Source: Chrysophaeum taylorii
Lineage: Eukaryota; Sar; Pelagophyceae; Pelagomonadales; Pelagomonadaceae
Reading direction: 5' to 3'
Length of the DNA stretch: 64,000 nucleotides
NCBI GenBank assembly: GCA_029834535.1
Contig: JAQMWT010000060.1
Span: 119,887 to 183,886, forward strand
Positions 27,590 through 31,524 of this stretch are shown piece by piece. The position numbers were made by a program, and so were the translations under genes. The stretch's first letter is position 1; each line of letters starts with the position of its first letter. The notes below the pieces were generated by a model, which saw nothing but the letters and a program-made list of their open reading frames with translations, searched no databases and had not been told where the DNA came from.

Positions 27590-29760
27590 CTAGGAGCCGT
27601 GATCATCGCCGTTGCGAGGAAGGCAAAGGCCGCCGCCGATCGAGTTCCACCTGCGTGCGGGAGGTCTACGACGCTGTTTTTTCCCGAATTAAGCAGAAAC
27701 AACAAGACGACCTACCGAAGATTCAGCTCCGTAGTAGAATTTTTGTTGTGCTCGAGCGCCTCGCCGATTGCGGCGGCACCATCGGCACCGATGGAATTCC
27801 AGCTGCGCGTGTTTTTGAAGCCAACGAGTGTGTGTGTGGCAGCAAAAAAATCACCAAAGATTAAGCATCTGCAACGACGAGTTTCGTTTTACCGCCTCGG
27901 CGATTGCGGCGCCACCGACGTCGCCAATTAAGTTCCGCCTACAATCTCTTAAGAGAAGCGAGGCGTGGCAAGATCCCACCCGAGATCGAGCCTCTGGAGC
28001 CCCGAATTATGGACGAGCGCCTCGGCGATTGCGGCACCGCCAGCGTTCTCAATACAGTTTCCCCTGCGCGTTTTTTCCTCCGAGTCAAGATTTTTCGATA
28101 GTGATGAGCATATACCAGAGGTTGAGCTCGTCCAGCGTTGAGTTTAGATGGAGCGATTCGCCGATCGCGACGGCACCGGCATCGCTGATAGTGTTCGAGC
28201 TGCGCGTAGAGTCTCCTAAGTTGCGTCGGCAACCGAGCATACCGAAGATCGAGGCTCTGGAGCGTCGAGTTCTCCTTGAGCGCCTCGGCAAGCTTCTCGA
28301 TGCCGTCGTCGTCGTCTCCGTGGTCTCCAATGGAGTTCGAACTGTGCGTTGATTCCATCGACGATCTTTTCAAGAATCATGAGAGTTACTTTCTTACCGA
28401 AGATCGAGAGATCGCAGCGAAGAATTTTGTTTCAGCGCCTCGGCGACCGCCGCGAATCCAGCGTCTCCGATGGAATTCCAGCTGCGCTTGGAGAATCGGC
28501 CGCGCAATTGAGAGGGAGGAAGGAGGCATACCCGAGATCAAGCGTCTGCAGCCTCAACTCATTCATTTTCAGCGTCTCGGCGATTGCGGCGGCACCGGGA
28601 TTGCCGATGGAGTTTTCGCTGGGGCGCGTGTCGGTGCGATCTCGATCGAAAAGCATACCCGAGTCCAAGGCACCGTAATCTCGACTTCTTTGCGAGTGCC
28701 GTGGCGAGTGACGCGGCGCCAGCGTCTCCAACCGAGTTTCTCCTGCGCGTCCGTCCACTTTTGCTCGTGCGTCGACGATCGAGAACAGGTGGCATACCCA
28801 AGATCAAGCCTCTGCAGGGCCAAGTTTTGCTCGAGCCCCGCAGCGACAGCGGCGGCACCATCGGCACCAATGCCGTTATAGCTGCATTTTTTGTCTCCGC
28901 GAAAAGTCTCCGCGTGTCGACAAACAAACACGAGCGAGGCATTTACCGAAGCTCGAGCGTCTGCAGAGTCGACGACGAATTCTCTTTGAGTAACTCGGCG
29001 ATTGCGGCGGCACCGGCGTCCCCGATAGAGTTCCAACTGCGTCGAGAGACTGCGCGAACGACAATCGAGAGAAAGAGCCTACTCGAGATCAAGCGTCTTT
29101 AGACTCGACTTGTGCTCGATTAGTGCCTTGGCTATTGCGGTGGCACCTGCTTCTCTGATGCAGTTTCCCCTGGGCGTTCCGTCTGCCGTCGAGGACATAG
29201 AGCGACCGACGTACCGCATATTCAGCGTCTCCAGCATATTCTGTGTGAGCACGTCGGCGATAGCTGTAGCACCACTAGCCCCGATGAAGTTCCAGCTAGC
29301 GTAACGTCTCCGCGATTTAGTAGCGAGGCAGGCACATACCTTAAAACAATTGTCTGCAGCGTCGAAATCTGCTTTAGAGCCCCGGCAATTGCGGTGGCAC
29401 CGGCGTTGTCGATGGAGTTTGCCCTGCGTCTTGATTTTTCCGAGAGTCGACGTTCCTCAGTAAGGAAAACGTGCCGAAGATTAAGCGTCTGCAGCGTCGA
29501 GTTGTGCTTGAGCACCTCGGCGACAGCGGCTGCAACATCGCCGTTCCCAATATTTCTGTATCTGCGCGCGGCCGTCGTCGGAGTGTCTATTCACTACCGA
29601 CTATTGAAACGAGGTACCCGAGATGAAGCTCCTCGATCGGCTCAAATAACACTCGAAGTGCCTCCTTGCCCATCGGCAGGACTCTTGACAGCCTACGAAC
29701 GCGTAATTAATTTCGCCATCGCCAAGGAAGACAAACAACGTGCCGTTTAAAAAAAAAAGC

Positions 29761-29792
<32 letters not shown>

Positions 29793-31524
29793 GCACCTGT
29801 AATAAATGCCAGCGGCTTGAATCAAGTTCGTGTATCTGCGGCTCGCTTGAAATCGAGCAATTAATTCGGACGGGAGAGCTTTGACGATCAGTAGACCTAT
29901 CTCGTCGTGACTCTGAAACAGCGACGACCAGCTCGCGGTGGATCCAACAAGATCATGCGCTGGGATCAAGGCGTCGTCTTGGAGAAGGTCGCGGAAGCCG
30001 TGCGCAACGGCAAACTGGTGTTCGCAAGCCACCACAAGCATGACGTCAGCGACGAGCGCGTCGTTTTGCTGCTGCTGCTGCTGAAACTCGTGGGAGTCCT
30101 TCATCCAAGTAGATCCACGATAGTAACGCGCCGCGAGACTTGCTATCTCATGATTTTCCAAGAGCTTTCGGACCTGACTTTTCAGAAGATAATGGACGTA
30201 TCTTGCAGTTGAACCGACGGGAATCTCAAACACAGCGGCCGTCATCGCGATTTTTACTGCCACGACTTTCTGCGCCAACGACGGAACTCGATAGAAGGCG
30301 GCGTCGGCGAGCTGCTGAACCTTGCGCGCATTATTTCTGACGCAGCTCGCGCGATCCACATCGCTGATCTTTTTATTGCCCAACGACGCTCCTAGGTCCT
30401 CCAGAATGAGAGTCTCATAGACTTCGATCGTCAGTCGCAGCTCTTCCCAAGCGTCTTGGAGGTCGGCAGTGCGAAGCGCCACTATTCCGTCGTCGAGAAT
30501 CTTTCTCGCGTCTTTGGCGAGGTCGTTGAAGAGTTCCTCTGGCGTGGCGTCGAGTCCATAGGAGGATGTCACGACGCACAGCAGCAACCGCATCGCGAAC
30601 TCGATCGGAAGGGCAACAAGAGCAGACTTGGGACCGTCCCAGAGATTCCGAAGAAGACAGCTGCTCCTCGCGAGCTCGCGTCGTCCGGCCGCGAGGGTTT
30701 CGGCTGGATCACGCGGTGGCGGCGCGACCGCCGCGACCATTCGCGCAAGCCGCGTGACCATATCGCTGCTGGGCATCTCGTCGAGTTCGGATAAGGCTGA
30801 CGACAGTCTGGCGTTCACTTCTGCCGAACTCGTATGCCTGCGTCGCGAAAAAAAAAGTCAACTCGTTTGCGTTTGCGATACTCACGCACAGCTCGCTGAG
30901 TATGACGTAAAGCGCGACCTCGATTCGGTCAGTGCGTGGATCGAGGATCGACTCGACGAGGGCGACAATCTCGCCGACGTTTGCGGTGACGCCATCGCGG
31001 AAGGCCTCTTCAATCTTGTCCTCGATTTGTTGGACGATATTTGTCGAATGCACGTCGGCGAGGACCTCGTCAAGCCTCTCGCTTACCTCGCCGTCGTCTT
31101 CACTCGTAAGAGTGACGCCGAGATGGGCTAAATCAGCCGCTGCCGCATCGAGGTGCTGGAGTTGGTCCGCGAAACGCGCGCGGTACTTCTTCGCTGCCCA
31201 CAATCGCTGCCACTGCTTCTTCTTTGCTGACCACTTATGCGCCGTCTCGCCCAATCGCAAGAGCGCGTCGACGAGGCTCGCGAGGGCGCTCGGCCGCAGG
31301 TCTGTCTGCGACAACTCATCAACCTCGGCCTCGAGCCGTTTGCAGCGCTCCGCGACAATTTTCGCGAAACCATCGTTCTCGCCGCAGCTCGCGAGGCAGT
31401 CATTGACGTGGGCTATGAGCCCATGGACGACACAGCCCAGCGGCACGTCGTCAAGAACAGCGAGCGCCGCCTCTGTCCCGACCCGCGCTGCCTCGACGGC
31501 GACGGCGTGGGCAGCTCGGTGCAT
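27590..31524 (-). CDS. HeLo/MLKL-like N-terminus plus 14 LRRs, 18-exon gene
   Basis: Predicted protein of 1005 residues. Residues 1-137 match the MLKL-NTD/HeLo four-helix bundle in layout: a DDVPLG turn before helix 1, ERCKRLEAEVDEL, LVDALLRLGETAHKW, the basic KKKQWQRLWAAKKY and ARFADQLQHLDAAAADL. Residues 212-583 are helical with no P-loop or other NTPase motif. Residues 584-985 are 14 RNase-inhibitor-type LRRs on the pattern NSIGDAGAAAIAEAL...N..LQTLDL. Exons: 30890-31524, 29797-30837, 29618-29692, fourteen LRR exons of 81-99 nt between 27716 and 29561, and 27590-27650. All 17 introns are phase 2. A start upstream of 31524 through an unseen exon is possible. Role as an immune or cell-death receptor is inference. 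Confidence 0.75.
29761..29792. repeat. TGTC microsatellite inside intron 2 of the LRR gene
   Basis: Eight tetranucleotide units (CAGA on the transcribed strand) starting four bases after the donor GTGCGA. The intron is 104 nt, about twice the length of the others, and this run accounts for part of the excess. Confidence 0.9.

Follow-up and report, generated by a model that had tools for sequence, protein, structure and literature searches.

A Chrysophaeum taylorii gene predicted to join a remote MLKL_N-like helical domain, a conserved middle domain and fourteen ribonuclease-inhibitor-type leucine-rich repeats

Can leucine-rich repeats (LRRs) be coupled to a helical bundle of the MLKL type in a protein that has no recognisable nucleotide-binding switch? 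This question is raised by a minus-strand gene located in a 64,000-nucleotide stretch of contig JAQMWT010000060.1 (the window) of Chrysophaeum taylorii. With moderate confidence, the gene is read here as encoding a receptor-like protein assembled by domain shuffling, with an MLKL_N-like bundle as output, a middle domain without detectable nucleoside triphosphatase (NTPase) features and 14 ribonuclease-inhibitor-type (RI-type) LRRs as input. From sequence, the predicted gene model, the LRR array, the transitive membership of the bundle, the conservation of the middle domain and the occurrence of these modules in other combinations in the genome could be demonstrated.

Gene model

Splicing of the window DNA gave one gene on the minus strand, from 31524 to 27590, composed of 18 exons and encoding 1005 amino acids (aa). 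All 17 introns are in phase 2. Exon 1 encodes residues 1-211 and exon 2 extends to about residue 558. The features are as follows (positions in the window, all on the minus strand):

30890-31524, - strand: exon 1, putative MLKL_N-like N-terminal domain (about residues 20-140) and acidic tail (141-211)
29797-30837, - strand: exon 2, linker and conserved middle domain (start near residue 286, LPIEF; later EHxFAxxHxxR)
29618-29692, - strand: exon 3, end of the middle region and first half-repeat
29475-29561, - strand: exon 4, LRR 1, with a GC donor downstream
29424-29474, - strand: putative GC-AG intron, read as 17 codons by the public model
29340-29423, - strand: exon 5, LRR 2
29215-29295, - strand: exon 6, LRR 3
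29083-29169, - strand: exon 7, LRR 4
28947-29036, - strand: exon 8, LRR 5
28798-28881, - strand: exon 9, LRR 6
28659-28742, - strand: exon 10, LRR 7
28532-28618, - strand: exon 11, LRR 8
28398-28481, - strand: exon 12, LRR 9
28243-28341, - strand: exon 13, LRR 10 with an acidic insert
28116-28199, - strand: exon 14, LRR 11
27980-28063, - strand: exon 15, LRR 12
27855-27938, - strand: exon 16, LRR 13
27716-27802, - strand: exon 17, LRR 14
27590-27650, - strand: exon 18, capping half-repeat and stop

For this locus the public record is CTAYLR_005813 (P0001, 1022 aa) of the pelagophyte alga Chrysophaeum taylorii, a protein that is letter-identical to the spliced model save for an insertion of 17 residues behind residue 613. 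These correspond to a 51-nucleotide (nt) piece (29474-29424) that is read through in the public model; as its donor is GC and its acceptor CAG, and as the LRR repeat is regular without it, it was taken as a probable GC-AG intron. The article that describes the genome and organism states that gene calling drew on RNA-seq and on protein evidence (PMC10366177). The gene is confirmed as real. Splicing recovered an 18-exon gene that unites exon 1 with the LRR exons, as proposed in the initial annotation, and the public model connects them in the same way.

N-terminal domain and its close relatives

A search of the genome with residues 1-212 matched 7 places, namely the gene itself and 6 others. Three are close relatives, on contigs C432 (E 3.7e-10), C78 (1.1e-9) and C2 (5.3e-6), and the remaining 3 had E values above 1. 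In reciprocal searches, the C2 domain recovered the window domain at 1.9e-6 and the C78 domain at 4.7e-9. In brief, these relatives are: (i) on C432 (L016), a 404-aa open frame that encodes an N-terminal-type domain and helices and then ends; (ii) on C78 (L017), frames that, from their position, probably form one gene and encode, downstream of the domain, an EF-hand-like stretch (13.7 bits with our own profile), a kinase and ankyrin repeats, together with a SAM match below cut-off; and (iii) on C2 (L018), a single public protein (P0002) of 1610 aa with a kinase and a SPRY domain, in which our own reading of the sequence suggests a SAM domain as well. Kinase domains are found in two of these three closest relatives (L017 and L018).

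Across the window domain and the three relatives, 15 columns are invariant, among them W98, K101, W109, A111, Y114 and F118, and the part of the domain that contains these listed residues is its most basic. The net charge is +5 in residues 93-140 and -14 in residues 141-211.

Relationship to MLKL_N

The window N-terminal domain is probably a remote member of the MLKL_N (four-helix-bundle, or HeLo-like) superfamily, an assignment that is well supported but transitive, since it passes through intermediates. PF22215 (MLKL_N) was listed weakly by the three relatives (E 0.006 at best in one scan and 0.03, 0.029 and 0.12 in another, all below cut-off). A four-member family, made of the window domain and the C432, C78 and C2 domains, was compared with a set of 11 MLKL_N-type domains, picked by eye among the 21 PF22215 places of the genome so that frames were complete and unbroken and the types varied, the other 10 places being excluded as copies, fragments or broken frames. 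Within this set, L019, L020, L022, L026 and L027 are over the Pfam cut-off and L030, L031, L032, L033, L035 and L037 are not. The comparison gave an hhalign value of 97.0% with a score of 68.9, versus 24.9 for the reversed control, at most 19.7 in 60 column shuffles and at most 37.0 in 60 shuffles of 11-column blocks, which keep the helix periodicity; the family scored 16.1 with the middle domain and 12.9 with the NACHT domains of this genome. By subgroup, the link was weaker, at 81.6% with the NACHT type and 71.5% with the CHAT/ankyrin type. With a 10-member set (the 11 minus L020, 4 of them over cut-off), the family still matched at 96.9%, and the profile of these 10 domains retrieved solved MLKL from the PDB (4btf, E 6.9e-11, and a further six sequences with E values up to 5.2e-9). 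The rows that follow MLKL, from E 0.005, are mostly designed helical proteins, with the plant protein At5g66900, which we take to be of RPW8 type, at 0.4. Furthermore, among the 2547 open reading frames (ORFs) of the fetched loci, the family profile found L027 at 5.5e-6 and L030 at 8e-5, versus none of the 16 named MLKL_N loci for 81 control profiles; L027 itself passes the Pfam MLKL_N cut-off by 0.3 bits (27.3 vs 27).

Several results weigh against this assignment. The window domain alone matched the MLKL_N set at 16.9%, with a score of 26.2 against 24.9 for the reversed control, and a PDB search with the four-member family profile retrieved no MLKL. Of the MLKL_N set, only 5 domains out of 11 are over the Pfam cut-off; the family matched the kinase type (three domains, the strongest MLKL_N by Pfam) at 41.7%, or 46.0% with the second gene described below (L064), and the FG-GAP type at just 2.5%. 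A single-sequence structure model was of low confidence (mean predicted local distance difference test, pLDDT, 53.3), with helices at 29-45, 52-70, 78-117 and 119-134 among others; its best Foldseek neighbours are complex I subunits, none at E <=0.001, and an MLKL chain stands at rank 28 with E 5.1. On its own, the window domain gave no PF22215 match in Pfam, and the window sequence gave no significant MLKL link in Pfam, NCBIfam, a PDB sequence search or single-sequence hhalign. Profile-profile homology to MLKL_N/HeLo-type members was found for the family and not for the window sequence alone. The HeLo/MLKL bundle placed at residues 1-140 by the initial annotation is consequently retained, but transitively: the family profile argues for it (97.0%, with controls far lower), and residues 1-140 alone match no profile.

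A second gene that links an MLKL_N-like domain to LRRs

Three of the weak matches from the genome searches with the C2 and C78 domains were followed (on C324, C12 and C339), and of these only that on C339 (L064, E 0.295) scored with the family profile. At L064:2318-5698 (G000:C339), an MLKL_N-like domain is followed by a protein kinase and then by 84-nt phase-2 RI-type LRR exons. Indeed, (i) the N-terminal domain reached 25.5 bits with the family profile (E 9.1e-8 among 228 ORFs), (ii) the kinase was recognised by Pfam at E 1.3e-46 and has HRD and DFG motifs, and (iii) at least 4 downstream LRR exons are exactly 84 nt long, in phase 2 and bounded by GT-AG introns. From their position, the LRR exons and the kinase most likely belong to the same gene, which would be a kinase-LRR version of the window gene, with a kinase rather than the middle domain. 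Pfam gave no MLKL_N match in L064. The L064 domain alone matched the window family at 86.7% and the MLKL_N set at 92.1%, values that have no control of their own; the family with L064 added matched the MLKL_N set at 97.4% with a score of 74.7, versus a maximum of 43.6 in 60 block shuffles.

Middle domain

The stretch between the bundle and the LRRs is a conserved domain family, judging by its recurrence, and not a featureless linker. Exon 2 with the start of exon 3 matched 13 places in the genome, 2 of which are the gene itself, 10 are at E <=1e-6 and one is at 0.146. In all 10 other places the middle domain is preceded by an EF-hand-like domain (E values of at most 1e-35 against a profile for which six of the ten were used), and LRR matches lie behind it in all six longer stretches examined; Pfam LRRs were found in L045, L047 and L050, and none at 0.01 in L049. 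The name EF-hand is loose, as Pfam listed EF-hand_5 below cut-off in L050 (E 0.0012) and L059 (E 0.0033), and no Pfam EF-hand was found in L042, L045, L047 or L049. Four of the 10 places sit in one array on C44. This array (L053-L056, G000:C44:161500-201500) consists of four EF-hand-like - middle domain - LRR genes spaced about 10 kb apart, two of which are nearly identical.

The window protein and five aligned members share the invariant patterns PxEFxxR, KxxxxxxAM and EHxFAxxHxxR; the last (encoded in window:29797-30837), invariant in six sequences, could be a catalytic or metal site. The middle domain (window:29797-30837) matched no known family, the best Pfam E value for residues 212-585 being 0.11. 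A motif scan of the same residues found no P-loop or Walker B pattern, and profile comparison with the NACHT domains of this genome gave 0.1%. A hidden NTPase was rejected on these motif, Pfam and profile comparisons, which leave a diverged fold possible, and a nucleotide-binding core with P-loop and Walker B, as in NOD-like receptors (NLRs), is not found in the window protein. The earlier statement that the middle is free of NTPase motifs is in agreement with these results, and the statement that the bundle is joined directly to the LRRs has to be abandoned, since a conserved domain that recurs at 10 other places sits between them.

LRR array

Exons 4-17 (14 exons) are 81, 84, 87, 90 or 99 nt long and each encodes one RI-type LRR of about 28 residues, with introns of 40-65 nt between them. 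Pfam recognised 13 LRR_6 stretches in the window protein (E 1.5e-53) and nothing over cut-off in residues 1-580. The repeats follow what we take to be the RI-type pattern (NxIxxxGAxxIAxxLxxNxxLxxLxL-like). The 14 LRRs of NLRC3/RNH1 type reported initially were found again, one per phase-2 exon, and exons 4-17 have the exon-per-LRR, equal-phase organisation of stramenopile algal receptor genes; it is not plausible that 14 in-phase one-repeat exons arose by chance. Recent homogenisation of the LRR exons was considered and showed no sign, the exons averaging 63.5% nucleotide identity with a maximum of 76.8. The LRR introns have 58.3% identity versus 46.8% when shuffled, a value for which shared splice ends account in part.

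MLKL_N repertoire of the genome

PF22215 matched 21 places in the genome (L019-L039), 11 of them over cut-off, with a best E value of 5.6e-17. Contigs C25 and C521 are apparently near copies of each other (L020/L021 and L047/L048 match at nearly the same positions), so that distinct MLKL_N genes are fewer and genome-wide counts are inflated. In brief, MLKL_N is found with: a kinase in L022 (Pfam) and in L019 and L023 (by reading); NPHP3_N/NACHT in L030 (Pfam) and in L026 and L032 (by motif and place); Roc in L031, with a CHAT match below cut-off; ankyrin repeats in L033 and in L027, the latter with a shortened kinase match below cut-off; and FG-GAP in L035 (Pfam) and L037 (by reading). In L020/L059, the EF-hand-like domain precedes MLKL_N and a kinase (E 4e-38). 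In L059 (G000:C25:15500-23500), this EF-hand-like - MLKL_N - kinase frame is followed by armadillo-type-looking repeats in another frame. These modules therefore mix, as EF-middle-LRR, EF-MLKL_N-kinase, MLKL_N-like-middle-LRR and MLKL_N-like-kinase-LRR.

At E <=0.001, the genome contains 16 NACHT, 14 NPHP3_N and 1 NB-ARC places, partly overlapping; PigL_N reached E 0.403 at best and NB-ARC is present at one place. Protein searches, mostly restricted to 8000 candidates chosen by shared words, returned no whole-protein homologue outside the species among the candidates compared, giving back the gene itself or, where its paralogue P0002 was the query, that record; one of these searches also missed paralogues present in its own query alignment, which may carry another annotation or differ in length. 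In scans of viral contigs none of 18 pattern matches was confirmed, and in prokaryotic contigs none of 38.

Possible function and alternative explanations

In the proposed mechanism, the LRRs would be the input, the bundle the output and the middle domain the coupling element, as NACHT is in NLRs. The LRR solenoid would use the middle domain to keep the protein at rest; once a ligand or partner has bound, the bundle would be freed and clustered and could then act at the membrane or recruit the like bundles of kinase or NACHT proteins, with defence or cell death as the outcome. Membrane killing, a ligand and an antiviral role are inferred for the window protein. On a broader and more tentative view, the alga may possess an MLKL-type cell-death and immunity repertoire built by exon and domain shuffling, without a nucleotide switch and with receptor and executioner in one protein, in which control of the bundle by the LRRs would run via a new helical middle domain in the window gene and via a kinase in L064.

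The main rival is a scaffold role beside the kinase paralogues: the bundle would be an adaptor that pairs with the bundles of kinase proteins and relays the LRR-sensed signal to phosphorylation, without membrane damage. The kinases of two of the three closest relatives, the HRD and DFG motifs of the L064 kinase and the 404-aa frame of L016, which stops after the bundle and helices, would all suit such a role. We nevertheless consider it less likely than the main reading, as the animal and fungal MLKL-type bundles studied act at membranes (PMC10197012, PMC12881547) and the net charge of +5 in residues 93-140 would be compatible with lipid binding, although the charge is a weak argument. Distinctly less probable is an unrelated scaffold with LRRs that resembles MLKL in being a helical bundle and nothing more. 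It would be in keeping with a window domain that alone stays at the level of the reversed control, with a link of 41.7% when the kinase-type MLKL_N domains are compared by themselves and with a structure model of low confidence (pLDDT 53.3), but it does not sit well with block-shuffle maxima of 37.0 and 43.6 against 68.9 and 74.7, with the matches of L064 alone (86.7% and 92.1%, without own control) or with the recovery of L027 at 5.5e-6 by the family profile when 81 control profiles found none of 16 MLKL_N loci.

A gene-model artefact, with exon 1 and the LRR exons in different genes, appears very improbable. The donor of intron 1 (GTGCGT) was picked for frame and the exon join was read from DNA only, but exons 1 and 2 are just 52 nt apart (30889-30838) with phases that fit on both sides, the public model has the identical exon 1-2 join, and the order of middle domain and LRRs recurs in the genome.

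Neighbouring genes

Two adjacent Lig_chan (ligand-gated ion channel) frames on opposite strands (window:23027-25195 and 25216-27387) lie beside the window gene, and a SIR2-family gene (window:32151-33110, - strand) lies on the 5' side of exon 1. Further on, an open frame with RVT_2 and retroviral SH3-like domains (window:35840-37684), presumably a piece of a Copia-type element, and an mTERF-family gene (window:39346-41010) are encoded.

Significance and comparison with known systems

A 2020 survey of 67 protist species reports no homologues of the mammalian necroptosis and pyroptosis regulators, MLKL included, and takes these pathways as likely vertebrate-exclusive (PMC7539657). In C. taylorii, a stramenopile alga, 21 places match MLKL_N, 11 of them over the Pfam cut-off, and the profile of 10 such domains retrieves solved MLKL structures. 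Among the best matches in the open-access literature, no title dealt with MLKL-type domains in stramenopiles. In other lineages, MLKL-family homologues with Sel1 repeats were reported in Glomeromycotina (PMC8778642), and membranes are the site of action of HeLo and MLKL bundles, both fungal and animal (PMC10197012, PMC12881547). If the algal bundles kill, this genome would offer a test system for the wiring of death effectors to different sensors, and for the question of whether such an effector can be controlled by an LRR array with no ATPase involved.

By profiles, the N-terminal helical domains of MLKL proteins (PF22215 with a kinase) and of the window protein belong to one superfamily, and MLKL_N-kinase frames over the Pfam cut-off are present in the same genome (L022, L059), whereas the window protein has no kinase or pseudokinase and has the middle domain and LRRs instead. 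Fungal HeLo-NACHT and plant CNL/RNL proteins likewise have an N-terminal bundle and C-terminal repeats, but in the window protein a NACHT/NB-ARC core is undetectable and the repeats are RI-type LRRs; the frames of this genome that combine MLKL_N-type and NPHP3_N/NACHT domains are separate genes from the window gene. The brown algal LRR-ROCO candidate receptors also have one LRR per exon, all in phase 2, but with 72-bp exons and a ROC-COR GTPase (PMC11378527), whereas the LRR exons of the window gene are of RI type and mostly 84 nt long, and a GTPase is absent. Within C. taylorii itself, the EF-hand-like - middle domain - LRR proteins (L041-L050) have the same middle domain and, where examined, RI-type LRRs, with an EF-hand-like domain at the place where the window protein has its MLKL_N-like bundle.

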